The notes beneath the pieces are model-generated. The model was given only the letters and a program-made list of their open reading frames with translations, was not told where the DNA came from and did no database searches. From positions 1 to 12,687 of the forward strand of contig JAIRXY010000087.1 in NCBI GenBank assembly GCA_031268055.1: a stretch of 12,687 bases of DNA. The letters run 5' to 3'. This document shows, one piece after another, positions 1-12,687 of this stretch. Origin of the DNA: Prevotellaceae bacterium (GTDB taxonomy: Bacteria > Bacteroidota > Bacteroidia > Bacteroidales > UBA932). Position 1 is the first letter of the stretch; every line of letters begins with the position of its first letter. The position numbers were made by a program, and so were the translations under genes.

Positions 1-4
1 ATTT

Positions 5-54
5 GAATGAAATCCTGCCCATCCTCAAATCCTGTAAATCCTGATTCAGACAAA
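5..54. repeat. 50-bp dispersed repeat, copy 1 (AATCCTG-rich)
   Basis: This 50-bp segment recurs at 9658-9707 in the same orientation with only two differences by eye (CC versus TA at the 14th-15th bases). It is itself built of short reiterations of AAATCCTG. It lies directly beside a copy of the hairpin-bearing GGGGCGTTCC repeat, and the second copy is also embedded in that repeat family. It has no coding potential. It looks like a dispersed intergenic element; how it spreads is not visible. Confidence 0.8.
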
Positions 55-60
55 GGGTGG

Positions 61-138
61 TGGGGCGTTCCGTTGTCCCGACGTTTCACGTCGGGCTACC
101 AATATTTCACCCGCTCCGGGTTGCCAGCCAGCGTGAAT
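61..138. repeat. GGGGCGTTCC hairpin repeat, copy 1
   Basis: This copy resembles the tandem 81-bp units at 9358-9519: GGGGCGTTCCGTTGTCCCGA, a hairpin (CCCGACGT, loop TTC, ACGTCGGG, at about 77-95), then GCTACCAATATTTCACCCG, then a CCAGCCAGCGTGAAT tail. The compact stem is perfect and preserved between copies although the loop differs (TTC here, TGC there), so structure may be conserved. Confidence 0.75.
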
Positions 139-357
139 AATGCGGACAAATGGTGGCGCAAGCCAATTTAAAATTCAAAATTCAAAATTTCTTTCAACCC
201 GCTCCAGATTATCTCGCTGGTGCAGGTTTGTAGCCCGTGTCGTTTTATCATATTGCTTGACGCTTGGCGCAGGCTGTGAGTATGCTCCAATGAAATATAA
301 GATAATCAGTCGATTATATACAATGTTGGCAAAAACTCAAAAATTATCCGGCCAGAC

Positions 358-387
358 AAAAAAATACCACATTAATGGTATTTTTTT
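358..387. terminator. A-tract/T-tract hairpin (bidirectional terminator or operator)
   Basis: A perfect 12-bp inverted repeat, AAAAAAATACCA at 358-369 and TGGTATTTTTTT at 376-387, has a 6-nt loop. After one mismatch the pairing extends through CAGA (353-356) with TCTG (389-392). Flanking A and T tracts are typical of a bidirectional intrinsic terminator, here perhaps ending a gene upstream of the window. It ends 16 nt before the TACTTTTG promoter core, so an operator role for the downstream operon is also possible. The stem is AT-rich, which weakens the terminator reading. Confidence 0.5.
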
Positions 388-403
388 ATCTGACAATTAG
401 CCC

Positions 404-411
404 TACTTTTG
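404..411 (+). promoter_or_regulatory. Bacteroidetes-type promoter core TACTTTTG for the sulfur operon
   Basis: TACTTTTG fits the Bacteroidetes -7 consensus TAnnTTTG exactly. No clear TTTG box stands 19-21 nt upstream; only the T tract of the hairpin falls there. Transcription starting a few bases downstream would give a leader under 20 nt before the cysteine synthase ATG at 435. It is the best promoter candidate for the genes that follow. Confidence 0.5.
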
Positions 412-434
412 CAAAAAATAATTGTTATACAACT

Positions 435-1370
435 ATGGCTAAGATTGCAGAAAGACTTACAGAGCTGATTGGCAATACGCCGCTTCTTGAGCTGGGCAAA
501 ATTGCGAGCATCAGCAAGGCAAACGCCCGGATTCTGGCAAAGTTGGAGTACCTGAATCCGGCGCGGAGCGTCAAAGACCGGATTGGCTTGGCGCTGATAG
601 AGGACGCCGAGGCAAGCGGCCTCCTCACCCCGCACAGCATTATCATTGAGCCTACCAGCGGAAATACCGGCATTGCTTTGGCTTTTATTGCAGCAGCCAA
701 AGGGTACAAGCTGATACTTACCATGCCCGACACGATGAGCGTTGAGCGCCGTAGCCTGCTGAGAGCGTTAGGCGCGGAGCTTGTCCTCACGCCCGGCTTT
801 GAGGGAATGGGCGGCGCTATTCGCAAGGCGGAAGAGTTGCAAAAGCAGCGCCCCGACTCGTTCATACCTCAACAATTTCAGAATCCATCCAACCCGCAAA
901 TCCACCGAACCACAACGGCGGAGGAAATTTGGAGGGATACCGACGGAAGTATTGATATTTTTGTTTCGGCGGTGGGCACCGGCGGAACAATTACCGGCAG
1001 CGGAGAAGTCCTCAAAAAGTACAATCCCGGCATCAAGGTGGTAGCGGTTGAGCCTTTCGATTCGCCGGTGTTGTCGGGCGGAAAACCCGGCCCGCACAAG
1101 ATACAGGGAATTGGCGCAGGATTTATCCCAAAGGTATTTAACCCCAAAATCGTAGATGAAATATTCAAGGTGAAGAATGAAGAAGCGTTTGAAACAAGCC
1201 GGCTCTTAGCCCGCGAGGAGGGGCTTTTGGTTGGAGCTTCCTCTGGGGCGGCTTCCTACGCCGCAATACAACTTGCAAAGAGGGTAGAAAATAGGGGGAA
1301 AACGATTGTAGCTATTCTGCCGGATACGGGCGAACGTTACCTCTCGACGCCTTTATACAACTTTGATTAG
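435..1370 (+). CDS. cysK: Cysteine synthase (O-acetylserine sulfhydrylase), CysK type
   Basis: This is a 311-residue PLP enzyme of fold type II that makes cysteine from an activated serine (O-acetylserine, or O-phosphoserine in some relatives) and a sulfide source. The PLP lysine is K47 in [11 protein letters not shown], the substrate loop is TSGNTG (74-79), the phosphate-binding glycine loop is GTGGTITG, and [16 protein letters not shown] matches classical CysK. Length is normal for the family. The frame is open from an ATG at 375, but the start at 435 is chosen because homology begins there and the extra 20 residues overlap the promoter core and hairpin. It leads the operon, 38 bp before a sulfur-carrier gene, an arrangement recalling cysM-cysO-mec of mycobacteria. 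By sequence it resembles CysK more than CysM, so thiocarboxylate use is inferred from context only. Confidence 0.93.
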
Positions 1371-1408
1371 CAGTAAATTGTTAACATTTAAAATTACAGC
1401 AAACAGGC

Positions 1409-1624
1409 ATGGGAAAAATAACGGTAAACGGAAAGGAGCAGGACTTGAGCGCTCCGACAACGCTTGCAGCGTTGATTGCGCAGAACAACATCGCGCAGCC
1501 CGACATGGTTTCGGTGCAGCTCAACGAGGAGTTTGTAAATAGGGAGGACTACGCGACCACCACGCTAAAGGATGGTGATGAAGTTGACTTTTTGTACTTT
1601 ATGGGAGGAGGAGGCCTGCAATGA
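1409..1624 (+). CDS. ThiS/CysO/HcyS-like sulfur carrier protein with GGGG-LQ tail
   Basis: A 71-residue ubiquitin-fold (beta-grasp) sulfur carrier. It starts MGKITVNGKEQDL, has the family's DGDEVDFLYF strand near the end, and finishes with M-G-G-G-G-L-Q. Proteins of this family carry sulfur as a thiocarboxylate on a terminal GG, formed after adenylation by a ThiF/MoeB enzyme. Here two residues (L70, Q71) follow the glycines, so the carrier should be inactive until trimmed. In QbsE of Pseudomonas and HcyS of Wolinella a JAMM peptidase removes such tails, and a JAMM gene lies in this operon. The stop overlaps the ATG of the next gene (ATGA). A thiamin role is less likely because no thiazole genes are present. 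Confidence 0.88.
   Translation: MGKITVNGKEQDLSAPTTLAALIAQNNIAQPDMVSVQLNEEFVNREDYATTTLKDGDEVDFLYFMGGGGLQ
1608..1618 (+). promoter_or_regulatory. Ribosome-binding site embedded in the carrier's poly-Gly codons
   Basis: The codons for the four C-terminal glycines of the carrier read GGAGGAGGAGG, a strong Shine-Dalgarno-like tract just upstream of the overlapping ATG of the moeB-like gene. Most other genes here have A-rich leaders with no such site. The tract probably couples translation of the activating enzyme to that of its carrier. Confidence 0.5.
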
Positions 1625-2436
1625 ACTTTACCGAAGACCAGATAAACAGGTACAGCCGGCATATTCTGCTTCAGGACGTAGGGGTAGAAGGTCAGGAAAA
1701 AATCAGCAGCGGGAAGGTGCTGGTGGTGGGCGCAGGAGGGTTAGGCGCTCCGGTTGCCCTCTACTTGGCAGCCGCCGGCGTGGGTACCATTGGCGTCATC
1801 GACGGCGACGTTGTGGATTTGAGCAACCTCCAGCGGCAGATTATCCACTTCACGGCAGACGTAGGAAAACCTAAGGTCATCTCCGCCAAGGAAAAAATCA
1901 ACCGCTTAAACCCTGATGTTCGGGTTGTTACCTACCAAGCGCTCCTTACGTCGGAGAATGCGCAGGAAATTATCAAGGACTACGATTTTGTGGTGGACGG
2001 CACCGACAACTTTCCCGTGAAATTCCTGATTAACGACGCTTGCGTCCTTGCCGGAAAGCCATTTTCGCACGGAGGCATCCTGCGCTTTGAAGGTCAAACG
2101 CTGACGTACCTGCCGGAGGCGCCCTGCTACCGCTGCCTGTTTCACTCCCCTCCCCCGCCAAACGCCGTTCCTACCTGCTCGCAAGCCGGCGTGCTGGGCG
2201 CTATTGCGGGTATGCTGGGGACAATTCAGGCGGCGGAAGCCCTGAAATACCTAACGGGGGTGGGCGAGCTGCTAACCGGCAAGTTGCTTACGTTCAACGC
2301 AAAAACTATGAACTTTCGGACTATTAAGACGAAGCGCTCGGAGAAGTGCCCGGTTTGCGGAAAAAATCCCACAATAACAAAGTTAATTGATTATGAACAA
2401 GCGGTTTGTGATATATCCGACCGCAAAAAACGCTAA
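1621..2436 (+). CDS. moeB: MoeB/ThiF-family sulfur-carrier adenylyltransferase
   Basis: This 271-residue E1-like enzyme would adenylate the C-terminus of a sulfur carrier with ATP. The nucleotide-binding loop is GAGGLG (37-42), followed by the family DGDVVDLSNLQRQ segment (61-73) and DGTDNF (126-131). C169 and C172 (CYRC) with C243 and C246 (CPVC) form the usual structural zinc site. C186 in PTCSQAGVLG sits at the position of the conserved cysteine of MoeB/ThiF proteins. It has no C-terminal rhodanese domain, so sulfur must come from another protein such as TusA, DsrE or the desulfurase encoded nearby. Its start overlaps the carrier's stop, so that carrier is the natural partner. No molybdopterin or thiamin gene is nearby, so the symbol describes family rather than pathway. 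Confidence 0.9.
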   Translation: MNFTEDQINRYSRHILLQDVGVEGQEKISSGKVLVVGAGGLGAPVALYLAAAGVGTIGVIDGDVVDLSNLQRQIIHFTADVGKPKVISAKEKINRLNPDVRVVTYQALLTSENAQEIIKDYDFVVDGTDNFPVKFLINDACVLAGKPFSHGGILRFEGQTLTYLPEAPCYRCLFHSPPPPNAVPTCSQAGVLGAIAGMLGTIQAAEALKYLTGVGELLTGKLLTFNAKTMNFRTIKTKRSEKCPVCGKNPTITKLIDYEQAVCDISDRKKR

Positions 2437-2441
2437 AAAAA

Positions 2442-2930
2442 ATGGCAGACAATAACCAAGCAAAAAAGCTATCCATCATCGCTTTCAGCGGTGATTTTGA
2501 CAAGCTCACGGCCGTTTTCACGCTGGCTACGGGGGCGGCAGCCGTGGGATACGAGGTAAATCTTTTCTTCACGTTCTGGGGGCTGGACGCCATCAAAATC
2601 AAGCAGGGGCGCTCTCCTGTGGGCAAGGGATTTTTGCCTAAGGTGTTCGGTATTATGATGGGCGGCCTGAAAGCGTCGCCGGTGAGCAGGCTTAACTTTT
2701 TTGGCATTAGCCCCAAAATTTTTCGCCACCTGATGCGAAAAAACAGCGTGGCCACCTTAGAAGAGCTGGTGGAGGCCGCCAAGCAGCTGAATATTAACTT
2801 CTACGCCTGCGAGATGGCTATGCACGTTTTGGGGCTGCAAAAAACCGACTTCATTCCCGAAGTTAAAGATGTGCTGGGCGTTGCCTCCTTCCTGACCCTG
2901 TCGGAGGGCGGACAAACCCTGTTTATTTAG
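2442..2930 (+). CDS. DsrE/DsrF-like family protein (DsrE2 type)
   Basis: A 162-residue protein of the DsrE superfamily, of the larger DsrE2-like kind. Visible signatures are the ATGAAAVGYEVNLFFTFWGL segment (29-48), a central Gly/Met-rich stretch (MMGG), the SVATLEELVEAAKQL helix and NFYACEMAMHVLG, which holds the single candidate persulfide cysteine C123. Proteins of this group act with TusA in sulfur transfer and are found with rhodaneses and sulfur oxidation or assimilation genes. The gene starts 5 bp after moeB. There is no signal peptide; hydrophobic segments at 25-47 could make it membrane-associated. Exact donor and acceptor cannot be read from sequence. Confidence 0.82.
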   Translation: MADNNQAKKLSIIAFSGDFDKLTAVFTLATGAAAVGYEVNLFFTFWGLDAIKIKQGRSPVGKGFLPKVFGIMMGGLKASPVSRLNFFGISPKIFRHLMRKNSVATLEELVEAAKQLNINFYACEMAMHVLGLQKTDFIPEVKDVLGVASFLTLSEGGQTLFI

Positions 2931-3013
2931 GAACTTTGCTCTTTTTTATAGCAGACCCTTATCGACGCTTCCCGCGCCGTCGCAAAAAAGTCCGTAGGAC
3001 TTTAAGATGGATA

Positions 3014-3095
3014 ACCCCGCGCAAGCGCAGCGCAGCACGGGGTAGCCAGCGCAACACGCAGCACGGGATAGCGCAGCGCAGCACGCAGCACAGGA
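3014..3095 (+). repeat. Short GC-rich tandem repeats in the DsrE-TusA spacer
   Basis: The 222-bp gap between DsrE and TusA genes breaks an otherwise tight operon. It holds about three degenerate ~24-bp units built on GCGCAGCGCAGCACGGGGTA, such as CGCAGCACGGGGTAGC, CGCAGCACGGGATAGC and CGCAGCACAGGATAA. The first lies in a hairpin with stem ACCCCG (3014-3019) and CGGGGT (3038-3043). No T tract follows and no convincing gene is present. Possible roles are RNA stability, partial termination, or simply an inserted repeat. Confidence 0.6.
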
Positions 3096-3152
3096 TAAAA
3101 CGAGTACCAATTGCAGGTTATTAATTTCTCATTACTAAAATCTTAAGCTATT

Positions 3153-3380
3153 ATGGCAACATACAACTTGGACATAACAAAGGAGCATTGCCCAATGACT
3201 TTTGTGAAAACAAAAATCGAGCTAAACAAGCTCCAAAAGGGAGACATCCTGAACGTAAAAGTGGCGGAAGGCGAGCCGCTGGAAAACATCCCGAAAAGCG
3301 CGGCAGAGCAGGGATTCAACGTTTTGTCGGTGGAGAAAACGGAAACGCCGGGCATTCACAGCATCAAAATAGAAAAATGA
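3153..3380 (+). CDS. TusA-family sulfurtransferase (SirA-like)
   Basis: A 75-residue TusA-family protein, a small cytoplasmic persulfide carrier that passes sulfur from desulfurases or DsrE proteins to acceptors. LDITKEHCPMTFVKTKIELN matches the N-terminal motif, with C13 as the persulfide cysteine. The common CPxP becomes CPMT, a variant also met in other TusA-like proteins. The rest (KGDILNVKVAEGEPLENIPKSAAEQGFNV) fits the beta-alpha-beta fold. Its stop overlaps the start of the JAMM gene (ATGA), so the two are probably coupled. A role linking the encapsulated desulfurase to the sulfur carrier is inferred from the operon. Confidence 0.87.
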   Translation: MATYNLDITKEHCPMTFVKTKIELNKLQKGDILNVKVAEGEPLENIPKSAAEQGFNVLSVEKTETPGIHSIKIEK

Positions 3381-3781
3381 TTCTTATTCCACAAGCAATA
3401 CTCAACGGTATCACTGCGCAAGCCCTAAGCGAGCTGCCAAACGAAGCCTGTGGGTTGCTGGCAGGCAGCGGAAGCGAGGTGACAAAGCAGTATCCGCTGA
3501 CCAACGTTGACCATAGCCCCGAGCACTTTTCCCTCGACCCCAAGGAGCAGTTTCGGGCTTTGCGGGAGGCGCGGTCGCAAGGATACCGGATAGTGGCAAG
3601 CTACCATAGCCACCCCCAAACGCCTGCCCGCCCGTCGGAGGAAGATATACGGCTGGCTTTCGACCCCGACCTTATCTACCTCATTCTCTCTCTGCAAGAA
3701 AGAGAAAATCCGGCGCTAAAGGCTTTTTCCATCAAAAACGGAAAGGTAGCCCCAATTGAAATTGAAATAGTAAACTGTTAA
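3377..3781 (+). CDS. JAMM/M67 metallopeptidase (Mec/QbsD/HcyD-like)
   Basis: A 134-residue JAMM (Mov34/MPN) zinc peptidase. The catalytic set is complete: E23 in NEACGLLAG, H77 and H79 in YHSHP, S87 and D90, giving HxHx(7)Sx(2)D. The start at 3377 overlaps the TusA stop by ATGA; the frame stays open upstream but that part is TusA sequence in another frame. Bacterial homologues act on sulfur carriers: Mec releases cysteine from the CysO-cysteine adduct, and QbsD or HcyD remove residues after the carrier's GG. With a carrier ending GGGG-LQ and a cysteine synthase in the same operon, either or both reactions are plausible. It is not expected to be a ubiquitin protease. Confidence 0.9.
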   Translation: MILIPQAILNGITAQALSELPNEACGLLAGSGSEVTKQYPLTNVDHSPEHFSLDPKEQFRALREARSQGYRIVASYHSHPQTPARPSEEDIRLAFDPDLIYLILSLQERENPALKAFSIKNGKVAPIEIEIVNC

Positions 3782-3817
3782 CATAACCACAAACCATTCA
3801 TTAACTACAACACTGCT

Positions 3818-5257
3818 ATGGCACAAAACGATTTACAGCGCAGCATTGCTACGTCAACGGCAAAAAAGCTGGCAACCACCACCAAAACGCCCCCACAGAT
3901 GGGGTCTATCACTCCACGACTGCTGCTAAAGTTGCTCCCGTGGGTGCAGGTCGACTCAGGAACTTACCGCGTAAACCGCACCAAGGTAGAGCTGAAAAAA
4001 GCAGAGCGAATTGAAGTGGAATTTTTCAATGGCGTTCCCTCTTTTCGGGTAGAATCGTTCCGAAGAATACCGCTATTTGCTCACATTGAGCAAGATATAG
4101 TAAACCGGCTGGCCAAAAAATTCCAAGTGGAAAACACCGGATTGGGCGATACCCTGATTGGAGAGGGCAAAGACCGGCAAAAATTCTTTATTGTTGCCCA
4201 AGGGCAGGTAGAAATATCAAGCAAGGGCACCCACGGCGAGGATTTGCGCATCGCTATACTTTCGGAGGGCGAGTACTTTGGGGAGGCCAACCTGCTTTCC
4301 GACAAAGCCTCGTCCGTAACGGTGAAGGCCATTACGCCTGCCGTGTTCTTCACGCTGAACAGCAAGGAGCTGGAGGGAATTATCAAGGATATACCCACCT
4401 TTAGGGAGCAGTTTCAGAAGGCAATTGATGAGCACCTCCGCCTGAAAGCTACGGTTAACGCACACGGGGAAAAGCATATAGACTTGGCCTCGGGGCACGA
4501 GGAGTACAACATCATCCCCGAAACGTACATCGACTACGAAGAGGAGCCACGCGAGTATCCCCTGAATACGCTTCAGACGGTGGTGCGCGTTCACACCCGC
4601 GTTACCGATTTGCACAATAACCCCTACAACCAGCTCGAGCAGCAAATGCGCCTGAGCATTGAGAGCATTAAGGAGCGGCAGGAGTGGGAGCTAATCAACA
4701 ACAAGGATTTTGGGCTGCTGGCGAGCGTAGAGCCGGGGTACCGCATCAGCGCCCGCTACGGGTCGCCTACACCCGACGACTTGGACGAGCTGCTATCGTT
4801 AGTCTGGAAAAAACCCTCGTTCTTTCTGGCTCATCCGCGCGCCGTGGCAGCCTTTGAGCGGGAGTGCACGTGGCGCGGCGTACCGCCCGTGACAACGGTG
4901 GTATTTGGCGTGCCGGTAATCACGTGGCGCGGCGTGCCCATCATCCCCAGCGACAAGGTGGAGATTCAGGGGCAGTACCTCACCAACCGTGGAGTAGGAA
5001 CAACAAGCTTTATTCTGGTGCGCACCGGCGAGCAGGAGCAGGGCGTGGTAGGGCTTCATCAGGCGGGCATTCCGGGCGAAATTGCCCCCAGCCTTTCTGC
5101 ACGACTCATGGGGTTGGACAAGTTTGCCGTGGCCAGCTACCTGCTGACAAAATACTTCTCGCTGGCCTCGCTAACGGACGACGCTATTGCTGCGCTCGAA
5201 AACGTGGAGGTGGGCTACTACCACGACTACAACAACCGTAAAACGCTCCTAAAGTAA
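3818..5257 (+). CDS. Family 2B encapsulin shell protein with cNMP-binding-like insert
   Basis: A 479-residue HK97-fold shell protein. The N-terminal arm has LLKLLPWVQVDSGTYRVNR (36-54), typical of family 2 encapsulins. A cyclic-nucleotide-binding-like domain is inserted at about 85-205 (IPLFAHIEQDIVNRLAKKF, then GEYFGEANLLSDKASSVTVK). The shell fold resumes with TVVRVHTRVTDLHNNPYNQLEQQMR, PEPGYR-like EPGYRISARYG, FLAHPRAVAAFERECTWRGVPP and ITWRGVPIIPSDK. The insert defines type 2B. In the phosphate-binding cassette the arginine expected after FGE is serine (S165), so canonical cAMP binding is doubtful. Family 2 shells assemble into nanocompartments that load enzymes by disordered N-terminal extensions; the next gene, 9 bp on, encodes such an enzyme. 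Related to SrpI and EshA of the literature. Confidence 0.9.
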   Translation: MAQNDLQRSIATSTAKKLATTTKTPPQMGSITPRLLLKLLPWVQVDSGTYRVNRTKVELKKAERIEVEFFNGVPSFRVESFRRIPLFAHIEQDIVNRLAKKFQVENTGLGDTLIGEGKDRQKFFIVAQGQVEISSKGTHGEDLRIAILSEGEYFGEANLLSDKASSVTVKAITPAVFFTLNSKELEGIIKDIPTFREQFQKAIDEHLRLKATVNAHGEKHIDLASGHEEYNIIPETYIDYEEEPREYPLNTLQTVVRVHTRVTDLHNNPYNQLEQQMRLSIESIKERQEWELINNKDFGLLASVEPGYRISARYGSPTPDDLDELLSLVWKKPSFFLAHPRAVAAFERECTWRGVPPVTTVVFGVPVITWRGVPIIPSDKVEIQGQYLTNRGVGTTSFILVRTGEQEQGVVGLHQAGIPGEIAPSLSARLMGLDKFAVASYLLTKYFSLASLTDDAIAALENVEVGYYHDYNNRKTLLK

Positions 5258-5266
5258 AAAAATGCT

Positions 5267-6733
5267 ATGGCAGATGAAGCAATTGATTTAAGCAGCGTTT
5301 ATGCATCTTTCCGGCGGTTGCAGGATTCACCTTTGCAGCCCCGCGCGGAGGGCATTTTTCCCGAAGCAGGGGAGCTGGCGGGGCTATTCTTTGCCGACAA
5401 CGACGATACGCCCACGGAGGGACCCACGCTGCGTTCGGCGGCAGAGCAGGAGTTTGCCGATACAGGCTACTCCCAATACTCTTTTTTGAGAGACCAGCCC
5501 ATCACCTACAGCGGACGGGAGACCTTTGACGTGCAGGCTATCCGCAAGGATTTCCCGATTCTGCACCAAAAGGTCAACGGGAAAGACCTGATTTGGTTTG
5601 ACAACGCCGCCACAACCCAAAAACCCCGACAGGTGATTGAAGCCCTCGCGCGCTACTACGAGCACGACAACTCCAACATTCACCGCGCCTCGCATACGCT
5701 GGCGGCGCGCGCTACCGACGGCTACGAGGGTGCGCGGGAGAAAGTTAGCCGATTCATCAACGCGCCGTCGGCGGAGGATATCATCTTTGTGCGGGGAACA
5801 ACCGAGGGCATAAACTTGGTTGCGCAGACTTTCGGCCGAAAGTTTATCAGGCCGGGCGACGAAATCATCATCTCTACCTTAGACCACCACGCAAATATTG
5901 TCCCATGGCAGCAGCTGGCCAAGGAGCGGAGCGCAAAGCTGCTCGTTATCCCCGTCAACGACAGGGGTGAGATAATTTTGGAAGCCTACGAAAGCTTGCT
6001 AAGCCCGCGGACAAAAATTGTTTCGTTTGCGCAGGTAAACAATACTTTTGGCACCATCCTGCCGGCCAAAATAATGGTGGACATGGCGAAGCGCTACGGC
6101 GCGCGCGTGCTGATAGACGGCGCGCAATCCGTTGCCCACGCGCCGGTGGACGTGCAGGATTTGGATGTGGACTTTTTTGTGTTCTCCGGCCATAAAATTT
6201 ACGCGCCAAACGGGATAGGCGCAGTCTACGGCAAAAAGGAGCTGCTGGAGCTGCTCCCGCCGTGGCAGAGCGGCGGTAACATGATTAAGGATGTTACCTT
6301 TGAGGAAACGGTTTTCAGCGCGCCGCCCCACAAGTTCGAGGCGGGAACGCCCAACGTGGCCGACGCTATTGGCTTGGGCGCCGCGCTGGACTACGTCGGC
6401 AGGATAGGCATCCTGAACATCGAAAAGTACGAGCATTACCTCACGGAGTACGCCCGCAAGGAGCTGGGCAAGGTAAACGGTCTCCGCCTGATTGGTAATC
6501 CCCGCGAGCGGGTGAGCGTAGTATCCTTCATCCTCCCCGCCATACCCACACCCGAAGTCGGGAAGCTGCTGGACAGAGAAGGCATTGCCCTCAGAGCAGG
6601 CCATCACTGCGCCCAACCCGCCCTGCGGCGGCTCGGCGTAGAGGCAACCGTGCGCCCCTCGCTCTCCTTTTACAACACAACAGCAGAAATCGACCGGCTG
6701 GTGGAGGCGGTGGAGAAAATACTTCAGAATTAG
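5267..6733 (+). CDS. SufS-like cysteine desulfurase, probable encapsulin cargo
   Basis: A 488-residue class V aminotransferase that takes sulfur from cysteine as a persulfide, leaving alanine. The catalytic domain starts near residue 87 (FDVQAIRKDFPIL). It shows the HHAN motif (207-210), the PLP aspartate in DGAQ (284-287), the PLP lysine K310 in SGHKIYAPNG, the catalytic cysteine C448 in RAGHHCAQP and R463 in VRPSLSFYN. SufS enzymes are about 406 residues; the extra ~86 at the N-terminus (acidic, Pro/Gly-rich, with GELAGLFFADND and GYSQYSFLRDQ) look disordered and fit a cargo-loading domain. The gene follows the shell gene by 9 bp. No other Suf gene is nearby, so iron-sulfur assembly is not its obvious job; sulfur storage or supply to TusA and the carrier is more likely. 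Confidence 0.92.
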   Translation: MADEAIDLSSVYASFRRLQDSPLQPRAEGIFPEAGELAGLFFADNDDTPTEGPTLRSAAEQEFADTGYSQYSFLRDQPITYSGRETFDVQAIRKDFPILHQKVNGKDLIWFDNAATTQKPRQVIEALARYYEHDNSNIHRASHTLAARATDGYEGAREKVSRFINAPSAEDIIFVRGTTEGINLVAQTFGRKFIRPGDEIIISTLDHHANIVPWQQLAKERSAKLLVIPVNDRGEIILEAYESLLSPRTKIVSFAQVNNTFGTILPAKIMVDMAKRYGARVLIDGAQSVAHAPVDVQDLDVDFFVFSGHKIYAPNGIGAVYGKKELLELLPPWQSGGNMIKDVTFEETVFSAPPHKFEAGTPNVADAIGLGAALDYVGRIGILNIEKYEHYLTEYARKELGKVNGLRLIGNPRERVSVVSFILPAIPTPEVGKLLDREGIALRAGHHCAQPALRRLGVEATVRPSLSFYNTTAEIDRLVEAVEKILQN

Positions 6734-6770
6734 GAATTACGAATTGGCTTACGCCGCCAAGCGGCAAATC

Positions 6771-6802
6771 ACCCTAACAGGGTTTTAAAACCCTGTTAGG
6801 GT
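6771..6802. repeat. Perfect 32-bp palindrome after the sulfur operon
   Basis: The halves ACCCTAACAGGGTTTT and AAAACCCTGTTAGGGT are exact reverse complements with no spacer, 37 bp after the desulfurase stop. As RNA it would form a long hairpin that could end or stabilise the operon transcript, but no T tract follows on either strand, so it is not a classical terminator. It may be a dispersed palindromic element. Confidence 0.75.
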
Positions 6803-6824
6803 TACCAAGCTGGGTTACCAAGCT
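6799..6824. repeat. 13-bp tandem duplication
   Basis: GGGTTACCAAGCT occurs twice head to tail (6799-6811 and 6812-6824), the first copy sharing its first bases with the end of the 32-bp palindrome. It probably reflects slippage or an insertion scar beside the palindrome. Confidence 0.75.
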
Positions 6825-6924
6825 TTTCGCCAGACAGATAACCTCATTACCTCATTAAACAGGGTCTGCTGTTAAACTCACAATTCATTATTAACCAATA
6901 TATTGCATATCACTATTGTCCGAT

Positions 6925-7064
6925 AAAAAAAGCAGACGCCCCGAAAGCGCCGGCTCCAGCTTGGATTACGCTCTTTCAGGGCTTGATGGTCAGCTCTTGC
7001 TCCGTTCGTAGGACGTTGCCCTGCGCTATTGACAGCCACCCTTTCAGGTGGGGTGGCATAAATC
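6925..7064 (-). ncRNA. Candidate small RNA, left member of a divergent pair
   Basis: Read on the minus strand, this ~140-nt element starts GATTTATGCCACCCCAC, contains a GGGTGGC/GCCACCC hairpin near its start, a CAAGCCCTGAAAG segment, and ends in a hairpin (GGCGC, loop, GCGTC with one G-U pair; plus-strand 6935-6951) followed by seven U residues. The first 17 nt are identical to the start of the plus-strand element at 7187. I do not recognise an Rfam family. Start and end are guesses from the shared motif and the U tract. The only open frame here (62 aa, minus) has no resemblance to a protein I know. Confidence 0.45.
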
Positions 7065-7116
7065 AACTATCATTTTCCTTGTTTTATGTTTTTACCTACT
7101 TCTACACATTTTTATG

Positions 7117-7133
7117 TGATTGATTATCAATCA
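7117..7133. promoter_or_regulatory. Central palindrome between the divergent RNA candidates
   Basis: TGATTGATTATCAATCA is a perfect 8-1-8 palindrome centred on base 7125, which is the midpoint (7125.5) between the two shared 17-nt starts. It lies in AT-rich DNA that would hold both promoters. The symmetry suggests an operator for both elements, or the axis of an inverted duplication. Confidence 0.45.
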
Positions 7134-7186
7134 TATGTAATTTCAACAAGGAGGCTTGTGGTGGGTATTTTTTTTGACTTAAAATC

Positions 7187-7318
7187 GATTTATGCCACCC
7201 CACTTTCGAGCTTGGGCTCTTAGCTTGATGTGGACTGTAAGCTCGGAACGGCGGACATATGCCAACCGAACCAAGCTGAAAGGCAGGAGTCCGACAGCAA
7301 TACCGCTGTCTATTTTTT
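7187..7318 (+). ncRNA. Candidate small RNA, right member of a divergent pair
   Basis: This ~132-nt plus-strand element starts with the same GATTTATGCCACCCCAC as its divergent neighbour, can pair GGACT with AGTCC across its middle, has a CCAAGCTGAAAGG segment resembling one in the left element, and ends in a clear intrinsic terminator: GACAGC (7293-7298), loop AATACC, GCTGTC (7305-7310), then TATTTTTT. A TTTTTTTG box at 7169-7176, about 10 nt before the start, loosely resembles a Bacteroidetes -7 element. No known family recognised and no open frame of note. Confidence 0.5.
7293..7318 (+). terminator. Intrinsic terminator of the right RNA candidate
   Basis: Six-base-pair GC-containing stem GACAGC/GCTGTC with a 6-nt loop followed directly by TATTTTTT. 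This is the strongest plus-strand terminator in the gene-poor stretch and supports transcription of the element before it, since no protein gene ends nearby. Confidence 0.6.
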
Positions 7319-7479
7319 AGGGGGGGTGACTTTTGAAAAATTGAAAATTGTATTTGTAATATGCTTATTATAAATAATATACAAATTTAACTCAACATTT
7401 TTTCATGTTTGTCGGTCAATGGTGAATTATTATAATAAAATTCCGATAGAGCAAAAACTAAATTGTATTTTCAAAAATA

Positions 7480-7510
7480 TTTGGTGATTGAAAAAAATAT
7501 TGTACATTTG
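7480..7510 (+). promoter_or_regulatory. Bacteroidetes-type promoter TTTG-N19-TACATTTG
   Basis: TTTG at 7480-7483 and TACATTTG at 7503-7510 are separated by 19 nt, matching the Bacteroidetes sigma-ABfr consensus closely. It lies about 95 bp upstream of the DUF2007 gene start at 7607, giving a leader of roughly 90 nt. It is the best promoter match in the window. Confidence 0.7.
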
Positions 7511-7606
7511 CGCATATTGAGTTGGATATAAGCGCAGGTGATAAGTATGGCGCAAACGGCTGCTTGAAATTGCACGCGCAAAGTAAATAGCAAAAAAAGT
7601 AAAGAT

Positions 7607-8092
7607 ATGGAAAGCGGAAAATTTATTACAGTCTGGACATTTACTTTTGCATACGAGGTTGCAGTAATTCGAAGCAGGTTTGAGTCGGAGGGTATTACTT
7701 GTTTTGTACAAGATGAGCTGACAGTTCAAGTTCACCCTTTTTACTCTAACGCTATTGGTGGAGTAAAGCTTCAAGTCAGGGAAAGTGACTTGCACCACGC
7801 CATTGAAATCCTGAAAGAAGCGGGGTACATTAAAGACAAAGATTTGCAGCCGTCCAAAGATGCGCCTCGCCTGAATGAGTACTCCGGTAATCAAGAAAAT
7901 ACAAAAAGCAAAGCGAAGACAGCGTGCCCGATTTGCGGCTCGGAAGAAACTATTAAGGATAAGAAAGCGGGGTGGCTCTTTCTGCTTTCTTCACTTTTGT
8001 TCATGTTTCCTACACCATTGCTTCAGAAACGGTATTATTGCTTTGACTGCAAGCAGGAATTTAAGGTGAAAAAGCAACGAAATCGGCCGTAA
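7607..8092 (+). CDS. DUF2007-like protein with C-terminal zinc ribbon and hydrophobic segment
   Basis: A 161-residue protein in two parts. Residues 5-75 (VWTFTFAYEVAVIRSRFESE, then GGVKLQVRESDLHHAIEILKEAG) match the DUF2007 pattern, a small ferredoxin-like fold named as a putative signal-transducing domain. Residues 105-152 hold two cysteine pairs, CPIC (107-110) and CFDC (145-148), a zinc-ribbon layout, separated by a hydrophobic stretch (WLFLLSSLLFMFPTPLL, 123-139) that may touch or enter the membrane. Start is the ATG after an A-rich leader and a good promoter. Partners and function are unknown; the neighbours give no clue beyond a following thioredoxin-like lipoprotein gene. Confidence 0.75.
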   Translation: MESGKFITVWTFTFAYEVAVIRSRFESEGITCFVQDELTVQVHPFYSNAIGGVKLQVRESDLHHAIEILKEAGYIKDKDLQPSKDAPRLNEYSGNQENTKSKAKTACPICGSEETIKDKKAGWLFLLSSLLFMFPTPLLQKRYYCFDCKQEFKVKKQRNRP

Positions 8093-8181
8093 TCCATGCG
8101 ACGAACTGCAAACGCTTGAAGGTAAGTGCAAATTTGACAAAATAGCTTTTAATTCAACAACGCCTTATACAATAAGCAATT

Positions 8182-8733
8182 ATGAAAGGTTTAAGTTTTA
8201 CGATAATTATACTCCTGCTTTTTGCCTCTTCAGGATGTCGCTCCTGTGCAGAGAAGGAAGAGCCTACGGAGGAGGCAAAAGAAATGTTTAGAGAGAATAT
8301 GAAGAAGGATTTTATCGGGAAGGCGTTTCCCGATTTCACGCTGCCCGATATTGACGGAAATGCGTTCATCCTGTCGGAGTATTCGGATGATAAATATTTG
8401 GTGTTGGATTTTTGGGGTAGCTGGTGCGGGGCCTGCATCGCCGAATTTCCAGAAATGAAATCTTACTACGAAAAACACCGTTCTCGGGTTGAATTTATCA
8501 GTATCAACATTGACGACGGCGTAATGCGCTGGAAGCGAGCGGTCAAAAAGCATGAGCTGCCATGGCTACAGCTTCGCGACGACCAGCTGATACCGGAGAG
8601 TAGTCCACGCTATTTATTGGGGATTTATCTTTTTCCAACGACGATTATTCTATCTCCAGACAAAACCGTGCTCAACATCTTCAAAGGGGAAGGCCCAGAG
8701 TTATATGAAACATTGGACGAGCTGTTAAAGTAG
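8182..8733 (+). CDS. TlpA/ResA-like thioredoxin-family lipoprotein
   Basis: A 183-residue secreted thiol-disulfide protein. A short signal ends in a lipobox-like ASSGC with C19 as lipid site. The thioredoxin fold covers about 45-183: IGKAFPDFTLPDIDGN is the AhpC/TSA-like entry, FWGSWCGACIAEFPEM carries the active CxxC (C82, C85), and FPTTIILSPD contains the cis-proline (P152). Such proteins reduce or isomerise disulfides outside the cytoplasm, often for cytochrome c maturation or stress; no cytochrome maturation gene is present here. A possible lost C-terminal tail lies in another frame just after the stop (to about 8786). Confidence 0.85.
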   Translation: MKGLSFTIIILLLFASSGCRSCAEKEEPTEEAKEMFRENMKKDFIGKAFPDFTLPDIDGNAFILSEYSDDKYLVLDFWGSWCGACIAEFPEMKSYYEKHRSRVEFISINIDDGVMRWKRAVKKHELPWLQLRDDQLIPESSPRYLLGIYLFPTTIILSPDKTVLNIFKGEGPELYETLDELLK

Positions 8734-8815
8734 AGCAGCTTCTTCAAAAGTTTTCCGTTGAGAAAATTAAGGAAATTATTGCATAACGATTCATAATATT
8801 TTTTGGAGGACTATC

Positions 8816-9319
8816 ATGGGAAATAATGAAACTTTACCCAATCTCAGTAAAAACATTGATGGTGCAAAGCATCAAAACAGGAGCTGTAAAATGAGCAGGA
8901 CATTGCTCTTTGGAGTGGCATTGCTCATTTTATCTTTTGCCGGATGCGACGGTAGCGGCAACGCCGGAACCACCTACTTTTATCAAAGCGGCATAGTGAG
9001 CATAGAGGCACATGATGCAATCAGCAGAGATATGGGCATCGCGGAACAATCCGGCCTCTCTGCCCAGCGGGCTCGTGACTACTGCAACCAGTGGTCTATC
9101 TATGGTGAGACCGTGGCACGACGCGGCTGCACAAGATTGGAGATAGAACGTTTTTTGGAGCCTGCAATGGACTTCACTACACGGACTAAATTTTTGAGGC
9201 TGTTGAACTCAGACGGCGCAGCCTTTCAAATATTCACTATGGAGGACGATGAGTACTATGATGTTGTTGAGTACTATTATTATGTGGAAAAAGAGGAAAG
9301 TGAGGGAAGTGAGAAGTAG
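8816..9319 (+). CDS. Hypothetical lipoprotein with acidic, Tyr-rich tail
   Basis: No family recognised. The 167-residue frame opens at an ATG 7 nt after a strong GGAGGA site. A second ATG at 8891 (142 residues) directly begins a signal peptide, MSRTLLFGVALLILSFAGC, with a lipobox-like FAGC; from the upstream start the same signal would be preceded by 25 polar residues. The mature part is a small helical-looking domain (ISRDMGIAEQSGLSAQRARDYCNQW, RLEIERFLEPAMDF) and ends in an unusual tail rich in Asp, Glu and Tyr (EDDEYYDVVEYYYYVEKEES). The signal peptide argues for 8891, the ribosome-binding site for 8816. Probably an outer-surface or periplasmic lipoprotein. Confidence 0.6.
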   Translation: MGNNETLPNLSKNIDGAKHQNRSCKMSRTLLFGVALLILSFAGCDGSGNAGTTYFYQSGIVSIEAHDAISRDMGIAEQSGLSAQRARDYCNQWSIYGETVARRGCTRLEIERFLEPAMDFTTRTKFLRLLNSDGAAFQIFTMEDDEYYDVVEYYYYVEKEESEGSEK

Positions 9320-9357
9320 GCGTAGATAAAATTTTGCAGCTCTCGCCAGAGCGTTCG

Positions 9358-9519
9358 CGGGTTGTCAGCCAGCATAAATCGTTGGGGCGTTCCGTAAACC
9401 CGACGTTGCACGTCGGGCTACCAATATTTCACCCGTTCCGGGTTAGCAGCCAGCATGAATCGTTGGGGCGTTCCGTTGTCCCGACGTTGCACGTCGGGCT
9501 ACCAAGATTTCACCCGTTC
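9358..9519. repeat. Two tandem 81-bp repeat units with CCCGACGT hairpins
   Basis: Units 9358-9438 and 9439-9519 each read CGGGTT..CAGCCAGCAT.AATCGTTGGGGCGTTCCG, then the hairpin CCCGACGT-TGC-ACGTCGGG (bases before it vary), then GCTACCAA.ATTTCACCCGTTC. They match the copy at 61-138. One frame translates to a repetitive peptide but it is best seen as a repeat. Partial copies continue at 9613-9636 and 9717-9745. Between units and partial copies lie small hairpins (GTCGC-GCA-GCGAC and CCGTA..TACGG). Confidence 0.85.
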
Positions 9520-9657
9520 CGCGCCATGACAAGTCGCGCAGCGACGACACTTTATTAACCGTATGCTTTAGCTTACGGGCAAAGCGACGGACAGCGCAGA
9601 ACAACCCGTTCGCGGGTTGTCAACCAGCATGAATCGTGCGGATATTTTTTTTGATTG

Positions 9658-9707
9658 GAATGAAATCCTGCTAATCCTCAAATCCTGTAAATCCTGATTC
9701 AGACAAA
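9658..9707. repeat. 50-bp dispersed repeat, copy 2
   Basis: This is the second copy of the AATCCTG-rich element at 5-54, same orientation, 48 of 50 positions alike by eye. It sits between partial pieces of the 81-bp hairpin repeat (left piece 9613-9636, right piece from about 9717), as if it had been inserted into one. Confidence 0.8.
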
Positions 9708-9905
9708 ATGACGCATGTCGGGCTACCGAGATTCAACCCGTACCGCATCTCTTGCTTGGAGAATACCGCATTTCGCACAAATTTTTTACCCTTTTTCCAT
9801 ACCTTATGCTTTTCTCACGAAAGTAAATTTTAATGCAATGAAGCCGTTATAATATGGCAGAACAGAAAAATATCCGCAGGATTCAAAGGAGGAAAAATGG
9901 AAAAA

Positions 9906-9931
9906 GGCGCTACTGAACTTGCAGTAGCGCC
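9906..9931 (-). terminator. Intrinsic terminator downstream of sdhA
   Basis: A perfect 10-bp stem, GGCGCTACTG (9906-9915) and CAGTAGCGCC (9922-9931), with a 6-nt loop. On the minus strand it is followed by TTTTT, fitting termination 30 bp after the sdhA stop. On the plus strand it is followed by TTTCTTTCT, so it may stop transcripts from both sides. Confidence 0.8.
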
Positions 9932-9960
9932 TTTCTTTCTATAGCATCTTTATAGCGCAG

Positions 9961-11907
<1,947 letters not shown>

Positions 11908-11966
11908 ATTTTTTTAATTCAAAAATTGCTCACTATACTGTTTTACTATAACTAATATCTTTCATA

Positions 11967-12629
11967 TCAGGCAGCTAATGCTTTTAAGCAGAAGAAAAGT
12001 GCAATGAATGAAAAGCCAAGAGCGATAAGCGTAGCAAACACGCGCGCGGCGATTTGCAGGCGCGGAATCCAGCGCTGGTTATTGGCGCCTATGGTTTGCA
12101 GCGCGCTCCAAAAGCCGTGGCACAGGTGAAACCACAGCGCCCATACCCACACGACGTACACGGCCGCCCAAAGCGGGTTAGACAGCGTTGTTGCAACCTC
12201 CAAGTATGGATTTTCTATCGTTGCGCCTCCAATGAAGTGCTGTAGCTGCATTTTAGCCCAAAAGTGGCTCAGGTGGATGGCCAGAAATCCCAGGACGATA
12301 AGCCCCAGCACAAACATGTTGCGCGAAGCCCAGCTCGACGCTTTGGTATTGCTGCCTACGGCGTACTTTACGGGGCGCGCCTTGCGGTTGGCCCACGTGA
12401 GGTAAAGCGCGTAGATGATGTGGATAACAAAGCCCAGCGCAAGTACAGGCACCATTATCTGAACAAAGATGTTGGTATCCATAAAGTGGCAGGCTGTGTT
12501 GTACGCCTCTTCCGAAATTACCGCTGCAAAGTTAATGCTCAAGTGCAGAAGGAGGAATACCATAAGAAAAAGTCCGCTAAGGCTCATAATGAGCTTCTTG
12601 CCAATGGAGGACGAAAAGATATTTGCCAT
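11967..12629 (-). CDS. sdhC: Succinate dehydrogenase/fumarate reductase cytochrome b subunit
   Basis: A 220-residue membrane anchor with five hydrophobic helices (about 14-37, 55-78, 104-124, 152-173, 193-217). Histidines suited to bind two b hemes lie in the helices: H29 (LLLHLS), H70 (VIHIIYALY), H118/H121 (IHLSHFW) and H167/H170 (FHLCHGFW). This single-anchor, diheme layout is type B, as in Wolinella and Bacteroides complexes that couple menaquinone to fumarate or succinate. It is first in the sdhC-sdhA order. The start ATG follows an A-rich leader; upstream sequence ends 58 bp later at the window edge, with TTAATTTG on the minus strand as a weak promoter-like core. Confidence 0.92.
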   Translation of the reverse strand: MANIFSSSIGKKLIMSLSGLFLMVFLLLHLSINFAAVISEEAYNTACHFMDTNIFVQIMVPVLALGFVIHIIYALYLTWANRKARPVKYAVGSNTKASSWASRNMFVLGLIVLGFLAIHLSHFWAKMQLQHFIGGATIENPYLEVATTLSNPLWAAVYVVWVWALWFHLCHGFWSALQTIGANNQRWIPRLQIAARVFATLIALGFSFIALFFCLKALAA

Positions 12630-12687
12630 AAAGCTAAGGGTTGAAAAATAATTTGCAAATTAAAACGTGCCTGTTTTCACAGCTACT

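Follow-up and report, generated by a model that had tools for sequence, protein, structure and literature searches.

The window analysed here is a stretch of 12,687 nucleotides (nt) from a Prevotellaceae bacterium (contig G000:C287, positions 1-12687), taken from an assembly of 2.07 Mb in 313 contigs that is 74.5% complete. At positions 435-6733 it carries eight consecutive genes, which join a family 2B encapsulin shell and a cysteine desulfurase to a ubiquitin-like sulfur carrier with its activating and processing enzymes. We propose that the desulfurase is held in the nanocompartment and supplies a protein-thiocarboxylate carrier, in which case the operon would be a sulfur-transfer line making homocysteine and/or cysteine; our probability for this reading, which draws on sequence comparison, is about 0.48. 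The number, order, and families of the genes had been named by an earlier reading of the DNA letters (the sequence-only reading), and the coordinates and family models bear them out:

435-1370 (+): CysK-type O-acetylserine sulfhydrylase, 311 amino acids (aa), pyridoxal phosphate (PLP) lysine K47; TIGR01139, 460 bits
1409-1624 (+): ThiS-type sulfur carrier, 71 aa, ending FMGGGG-LQ; TIGR01683
1621-2436 (+): MoeB/ThiF-like E1, 271 aa; PF00899, 283.6 bits, the sole Pfam match
2442-2930 (+): DsrE2-like persulfide carrier, 162 aa, conserved C123; PF13686, 132.9 bits
3153-3380 (+): TusA-like sulfur relay, 75 aa, conserved C13; PF01206, 69 bits
3377-3781 (+): JAMM peptidase (Prok-JAB), 134 aa; PF14464, 83.8 bits
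3818-5257 (+): family 2B encapsulin shell, 479 aa; NF041163, 556 bits (cut-off 400)
5267-6733 (+): SufS-type cysteine desulfurase, 488 aa, N-terminal extension of about 85-90 aa; TIGR01979, 547 bits

In the proposed line, CysK would make cysteine from O-acetylserine and sulfide, and the N-terminally extended desulfurase within the shell would convert cysteine into alanine and sulfane sulfur, which may stay inside. Outside the shell, DsrE2 and TusA would carry the persulfide, and JAMM would remove the short tail of ThiS, exposing its glycines. The E1 would adenylate ThiS, and the TusA persulfide would convert it into a thiocarboxylate, from which a MetY-type enzyme, where present, would make homocysteine and CysK perhaps cysteine. 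We infer each of these reactions, as well as the loading of the shell, the storage of sulfur, and the direction of flow, from direct observations of the following kinds: the identities of the genes, their catalytic residues, their linkage, the all-or-none behaviour of a ThiS-E1-JAMM cassette, the tails of the carriers, and the neighbours that these operons have in common with cassettes linked to a sulfite reductase.

Linkage of the shell with the carrier cassette

A profile search of genome contigs with an alignment of eight shells gave at least 585 confirmed loci. The best 80 of these, which are mutually related and do not include the window, were kept and searched with the eight window proteins (tblastn). 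Among these best 80, the nearest named relatives of the shell are metagenome-assembled genomes titled Prevotellaceae, Candidatus Symbiothrix, Dysgonamonadaceae, Tannerella, and Bacteroidia, many of them presumably from termite guts. In the description of gene order, tblastn hits below 40% identity were dropped, and genes more than 4.5 kb from the next were counted as a separate cluster.

All eight genes are clustered in 47 of these 80 best-matching loci, and 22 of the remaining 33 show less than 6 kb upstream or less than 3.5 kb downstream of the shell. Among the 41 roomy loci, with at least 6 kb upstream and at least 3.5 kb downstream, the desulfurase is present in all 41, CysK in 39, and DsrE2 and TusA in 38 each. 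ThiS, E1, and JAMM form an all-or-none cassette in the roomy loci: it is complete in 31, absent from 10, and partial in none. Its position varies across the 80 loci, of which 17 have the arrangement of the window. The cassette lies downstream in 16 others and in two more without CysK in the cluster, upstream in 10, on the opposite strand in three, and in scrambled order in two (L092 and L158), and 30 loci have none or part of it. On the shell tree as found, the cassette-bearing rows need at least 10 changes of arrangement, a number that falls if well-supported branches alone are counted, the tree having 25 open forks and support from the Shimodaira-Hasegawa-like approximate likelihood ratio test only. 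Twenty-three named loci hold no part of the cassette in the cluster; when the genomes of 14 were tested, 11 proved to hold ThiS-E1-JAMM elsewhere, in one (L091) JAMM and TusA lie 5.3 kb upstream, where the contig ends, and two (L104 and L117) have none.

The association also appears at the level of whole genomes. Among 393 genomes of the order, a shell scoring over the cut-off is present in 10, spread across eight family codes, and a JAMM relative in 17, one of them weak. JAMM occurs in nine of the 10 shell genomes as against eight of the 383 without a shell (Fisher p 2e-13, relatedness uncorrected), and the sole shell genome without it, G630, is 65% complete. In seven of the nine genomes with both, the genes form one cluster, cut in one case by a contig end; JAMM and the shell lie about 20 kb apart in G457, and on two contigs, each near a contig end, in G503. 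Shell and JAMM are both missing from five further genomes sampled from the window's own family. Linkage conserved beyond chance, with physical joining in several arrangements, is confirmed by these two surveys, and with it a central expectation of the sequence-only reading, namely that shell, ThiS, E1, JAMM, and CysK belong together in related genomes.

It should be mentioned that one assembly, G690, gave three shell matches (C19, C368, and C434) and may mix several strains, because its contamination is given as 8%.

Carrier cassette, relay proteins, and shell

The window ThiS has two residues (LQ) encoded past its glycines. Solved relatives were identified by sequence for the shell, CysK, the carrier, JAMM, and DsrE2, and the best one for ThiS, 2k5p, likewise extends beyond the glycines. 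A tail is present in 72 of 73 JAMM-linked carrier rows, that is, in all 50 shell-linked carriers, in 11 of 12 other JAMM-linked ones (the exception is L063), and in all 11 carriers of unlinked cassettes; the 73 rows include L051, L057, and L061, which are repeats or near-repeats of L114, L148, and L158. The tails are 1 to 40 residues long and vary freely in sequence. No tail was found in six of six carriers of f19, a lineage of the same phylum and another class, or on the ThiS that adjoins the thiamine genes in the window's own genome. Because the JAMM-linked carriers are tailed and the f19 carriers are tail-less, JAMM is probably the protease that trims the carrier. Its residues E23, H77, H79, and D90, which we take to be the JAMM active-site set, are conserved (57 rows), and its best solved relative is 2kks. 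JAMM-type trimming of a tailed carrier is reportedly also found in the pairs QbsD/QbsE and HcyD/HcyS.

The E1, which would adenylate the ThiS carrier, matches PF00899 alone across its 271 aa, and has no rhodanese domain by Pfam. C169, C172, C243, C246, C186, and C263 are conserved in an alignment of 51 rows, and the first four of these probably form a zinc site. C263, near the C-terminus, is at least 97% conserved in the same rows, in addition to the two CxxC pairs, and could act in sulfur transfer instead of a rhodanese domain.

The synthase exceeds the cut-off of the CysK model TIGR01139, and it reaches 298 bits on the cysM model TIGR01138, whose cut-off is 394.2. K47 is conserved at 97% or more (67 rows), and the best solved relative is 2q3b, which we take to be M. 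tuberculosis CysK1. Of the 10 roomy loci that lack the cassette, nine keep CysK, as do 14 of the 15 f19 loci fetched (the remaining one is cut). Elsewhere in the window genome are a second CysK-type gene (C241, 68% identity) and another SufS-type gene (C231, 45% identity). Because CysK stays with the shell and desulfurase where the cassette is absent, and because of these second genes, we place it on the supply side, where it may provide the desulfurase with cysteine; it might in addition accept sulfur from the carrier. DsrE2 scores 73 bits on NF047629, below the cut-off of 210; its C123 (72 rows) and C13 of TusA (74 rows) are conserved, and the two proteins are found both with the shell core and with carrier modules away from the shell.

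Besides NF041163, the shell matches PF19307 (SrpI-like HK97) at 371 bits, with the HK97-type domain at residues 209-466 and a cyclic nucleoside monophosphate (cNMP)-binding-like PF00027 domain at about 110-190 ahead of it. It aligns across residues 7-466 with 9bje (363 bits), which we take as a family 2B shell because of its length and the other hits. According to PMC12407261, represented here by excerpts like all papers cited by PMC number, a family 2B shell showed no binding of cyclic nucleotides by its inserted domain, and regulation by cyclic AMP is therefore not to be assumed.

The SufS model begins at residue 91 of the desulfurase, with the extension ahead of it and the gene beside the shell. 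On the encapsulin-cargo model NF041166 the protein scores 764.1 bits, below the cut-off of 800, and positions 214-623 of the 623 in the profile are matched, because the extension of the window protein is only about 85-90 residues long. The earlier claim of a family 2B encapsulin with an extended desulfurase holds with these values. K310 and C448, presumably the PLP lysine and the catalytic cysteine, are conserved (77 rows). An extension of 46-163 residues is present in 79 of 80 desulfurase rows, including the window's, and the other row, L146, has a broken frame. The motif YSF(L/Q)RD occurs in 16 of the 80 extensions, the window's among them, which all come from the half of the shell tree that contains the window, and GFG(I/V)G(I/L)PE is common to 36 others. 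The desulfurase is the probable cargo of the shell; we keep its loading conditional because the comparable motif AASPYYFLDG by itself did not load cargo in PMC8049743.

The matches for the L146 desulfurase and the L065 CysK are each split into two parts, possibly owing to a frameshift or an assembly error.

Possible sulfur inputs, acceptors, and surroundings

The cassette has another habitat. Twenty cassette loci without a shell in view were gathered, nine found in the search of the order and 11 (L212-L222) taken from genomes with a shell elsewhere, and their open frames were clustered with those of the shell loci; L053 and L060 also come from shell genomes, L056, L064, and L068 were left out of the 20, and L062 shows DsrE2, TusA, and JAMM only. 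In L213, ThiS-E1-JAMM adjoins a sulfite reductase of 788 aa (2661-5024, minus strand) with two NIR_SIR halves and a C-terminal TusA, the domain scan of this family covering L213 only. Members of the family occur in 10 of the 20 loci, nine of them 773-805 aa long and the L058 copy truncated. The E1 tree, which leaves out L051, L057, L061, and E1 hits shorter than 700 bases, requires five changes between shell-linked and reductase-linked rows (modest support). A reductase match below 1e-50 is present in 13 of 51 shell genomes, in five of seven JAMM genomes without a shell, and in none of 15 genomes with neither, a group that includes G408 (weak JAMM match) and G396 (weak reductase match). Among shell genomes, the reductase occurs in seven of 12 with an unlinked cassette or none, as against six of 38 with a linked one (Fisher p 0.007, exploratory, relatedness uncorrected); two of the 12 are without JAMM, L091 was excluded from the unlinked group because of the contig end at its JAMM, and the 38 include the window genome. 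No match to the reductase part of L213 was found in the window genome, and there are no sulfite/sulfate assimilation genes among the named genes of the window.

On the acceptor side, a MetY-like PF01053 protein stands in 38 of the 80 shell loci, never more than 1.5 kb from the closest of the eight genes. A comparison with the PDB covered the proteins of two shell loci (L129 and L131) and of the shell-less locus L063. All are closest to 3ri6, an O-acetylhomoserine sulfhydrylase that we take to be the Wolinella enzyme (344, 331, and 430 bits, respectively, versus 254, 236, and 303 bits for the next-best structure). TIGR01326 is the best or second-best model for six MetY-like proteins, none of which reaches its cut-off, and in L110, L063, and L217 the gene order is ThiS, MetY-like, E1.

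Fifteen f19 loci and three family 2A-like loci were also fetched, and 16 of the 18 have CysK. In L076, the sole f19 locus scanned with Pfam, the order is CysK, a hexapeptide protein like serine O-acetyltransferase (SAT), shell, a 724-residue desulfurase, a 120-residue protein, a cystathionine gamma-synthase-like enzyme, and then ThiS, ThiG, ThiH, and ThiF. ThiS and/or E1 lie downstream of the desulfurase in eight of the 15 f19 loci; contig ends truncate some of the rest. This thiamine-type set and the cassette have E1s that are distant from each other on the E1 tree, so the two neighbourhoods look independent. A SAT-like hexapeptide protein recurs near the operon in L151 (8127-9035) and in 11 other named loci; the L151 protein reaches 159.8 bits on cysE, whose cut-off is 210.65.

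In the window, the gaps between the genes are all below 40 nt except for 222 nt between DsrE2 and TusA: CysK and ThiS are 38 nt apart, ThiS and E1 overlap by 4 nt, E1 and DsrE2 are 5 nt apart, TusA and JAMM overlap by 4 nt, and 36 and 9 nt separate JAMM from the shell and the shell from the desulfurase. Three further features lie in or next to the operon:

404-411 (+): putative -7 element TACTTTTG, read from the sequence, just 5' of the CysK start
2931-3152 (no strand): the 222-nt gap, in which 3019-3097 comprise three imperfect repeats of 27 bases
6771-6802 (+): perfect 16-nt palindrome 3' of the last gene, a possible transcription end; fold z-score -6.15

The first of these matches TAnnTTTG, which we take to be the Bacteroidetes -7 element. 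Such an element before CysK and a strong palindrome after the desulfurase are as would be expected for one transcription unit. An Rfam scan of the window gave no match at gathering scores. A perfect 17-nt inverted repeat (GTGGGGTGGCATAAATC) at 7048-7064 and 7187-7203, its arms 122 nt apart and likewise without an Rfam match, is possibly a small mobile or structural element. Farther 3' of the operon, 7607-8733 (+) encodes a DUF2007 protein and a lipoprotein-like thioredoxin-family protein, neither of which has a match in the 80 named loci at 1e-5; a tandem repeat lies at 9352-9521 (unit 81 bases, 2.1 copies, matches 91%), and 9961-12629 (-) encodes, judging from the translations alone, the flavoprotein and cytochrome b-type subunits of a succinate dehydrogenase/fumarate reductase.

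Known systems and competing explanations

The thiocarboxylate methionine pathway of Wolinella succinogenes, reportedly described in the Journal of the American Chemical Society in 2011, is said to use a carrier whose tail is trimmed by JAMM and an E1 without rhodanese. The window shares the tailed carrier, the JAMM, and the E1 type, and its relatives carry a MetY closest to 3ri6; the differences are the sulfur source, the shell, which is absent there, and a MetY of the 3ri6 kind, which was not found in the window genome. CysO, the carrier of the CysM-CysO-Mec system, ends in GG as encoded. Like the window, that system of Mycobacterium tuberculosis (PMC3227635, in excerpt) combines a carrier, an activating enzyme, a JAMM protein, and a cysteine synthase, but the window has a CysK-type synthase, an E1 without the rhodanese domain of MoeZR, a tailed carrier, and a desulfurase with a shell. 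The sequence-only reading had identified the carrier part with this pathway. That identification fails on the synthase type, the E1 rhodanese, and the carrier end, the JAMM residues alone agreeing, while the conserved joining of encapsulin-desulfurase and carrier genes stands. The mechanism should accordingly be sought not in CysO-type cysteine synthesis but in a tail-trimmed carrier of the sulfite/methionine kind, joined here to what would be an encapsulated desulfurase.

Operons listed in PMC1779556 come close to the carrier part. Rows 4c and 4e share with the window a ThiS-like carrier, an E1, a JAB protein, and a cysteine synthase; row 4e, in which Wolinella is listed, has an E1 without rhodanese, a SirA protein that is always present, and JAB, so that the E1 type and SirA/TusA are also as in the window. 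Unlike the window, neither row as excerpted has an encapsulin or a cysteine desulfurase, and row 4e has sulfate/sulfite assimilation genes. For the shell part, PMC8346489 describes 199 family 2B desulfurase operons that resemble the window in a shell with a cNMP-type insert, a SufS-type desulfurase with an unannotated N-terminal extension, and cysteine-synthesis genes nearby. Their most enriched accessory genes are SAT and rhodanese, unlike the ThiS, E1, JAMM, DsrE2, and TusA of the window and the MetY-like protein frequent in its relatives. In the family 2A system SrpI-CyD of Synechococcus elongatus (PMC8049743), the desulfurase likewise has an N-terminal targeting region, and AASPYYFLDG resembles YSF(L/Q)RD, but that N-terminal domain is 225 residues long and the 2A shells have no cNMP-type domain. 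A joint encapsulin-carrier system was not found described in the excerpts of the open-licence papers searched, preprints excluded, and the supplementary neighbour figures of PMC8346489 could show some of the genes. PMC10434189, which names a JAB domain and a cysteine synthase, does not, as excerpted, concern this operon.

A cysteine pathway of the CysO kind, in which shell sulfur would pass via TusA/DsrE2 to the carrier and on to the cysteine synthase, with JAMM releasing cysteine as Mec does, would suit the position of CysK immediately 5' of ThiS in the window and in the 17 of 80 loci of the same arrangement, as well as the ThiS, E1, JAB, and cysteine synthase operons of row 4c in PMC1779556; one JAMM cutting after glycine could serve both jobs, and the window genome offers no MetY of the relatives' type. 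We nevertheless consider it unlikely, given the CysK-type synthase, the rhodanese-free E1, and the tailed carrier, the retention of CysK without the cassette in roomy and f19 loci, and the MetY-like enzyme of 38 loci. A role of the carrier in making the thiazole of thiamine, with the encapsulated desulfurase as its sulfur supplier, is suggested by the thiS-thiG-thiH-thiF genes after the encapsulin genes of L076, but no ThiG or ThiH gene lies by the window cluster, the window genome has its separate tail-less ThiS at the thiamine genes, and the two types of E1 are widely separated on the tree; we regard this as very improbable. The same holds for a ubiquitin-like protein-modifying system with JAMM as deconjugase, to which we give hardly any credence: ThiS-E1-JAMM resembles prokaryotic ubiquitin-like sets, and JAMM reaches 74.9 bits on the desampylase model NF041370 (cut-off 130), yet no E2-like or other conjugation gene was found among the scanned neighbours, the identified ones being mostly sulfur-metabolism enzymes. 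A weak ATP-grasp hit was seen beside L067, a locus outside the set clustered for neighbours.

The remaining explanation is shared regulation, that is, two independent sulfur modules needed simultaneously, with no sulfur passing from desulfurase to carrier. Physical linkage is evidently not needed, because 11 of the 14 tested shell genomes without a cassette in the cluster hold it elsewhere; the cassette also adjoins a sulfite reductase, f19 and 2A shells have no DsrE2, TusA, or JAMM nearby, and family 2 desulfurase encapsulins commonly have genes of cysteine synthesis beside them (PMC8346489, in excerpt). Set against this are the several arrangements in which the parts are joined, their high co-occurrence across genomes, and the presence of DsrE2 and TusA, the presumed persulfide relay, with both parts; on balance, shared regulation seems rather doubtful to us.

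Our proposal of a transfer line from the encapsulated desulfurase to the carrier has its own difficulties. If CysK were both source and acceptor, the flow would be circular. TusA and DsrE2 are unlikely to pass the shell pores, and how sulfur would cross the shell to reach them lacks an explanation. The locus set (the best 80 of at least 585 confirmed matches) is made up of related loci. The encapsulin as a simple replacement of the sulfite reductase is ruled out, because 13 of the 51 shell genomes also match the reductase. Near the window and in its 74.5% complete genome, no MetY of the relatives' type was found; the genome's two strong PF01053 proteins are 34-38% identical to the MetY-like proteins of the relatives. 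Finally, DsrE2, TusA, and JAMM are near the shell in none of the 18 f19 and family 2A-like loci, and their partnership is not general for family 2 shells.

We may speculate further, with less conviction than for the window itself, that a cysteine desulfurase enclosed in a protein shell of viral origin serves a ubiquitin-like thiocarboxylate carrier as its dedicated source of sulfur for making sulfur amino acids, and that the cassette has switched repeatedly between a sulfite reductase-TusA input and one from encapsulin desulfurase-TusA/DsrE2. Because f19, as a second lineage, has an encapsulated desulfurase beside a thiamine ThiS system, feeding ThiS-family carriers might even be a general role of family 2 desulfurase encapsulins.

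Each part of the operon is known; their stable joining, with changing sulfur neighbours, is new. In PMC8049743, the fate of the sulfur released in family 2 desulfurase encapsulins is called an open question, with carrier transfer and polysulfide storage as the options. The linkage in many Bacteroidales of the gut and other places suggests a possible destination for the sulfur of the compartment. Because the operon names a relay (DsrE2 and TusA), an acceptor (ThiS), an E1, a protease, and likely end enzymes (MetY and CysK), the question becomes testable. If the proposal is true, protein compartments would be linked to ubiquitin-like carrier chemistry, and these Bacteroidales would gain a route to sulfur amino acids that is not required to begin at sulfite.

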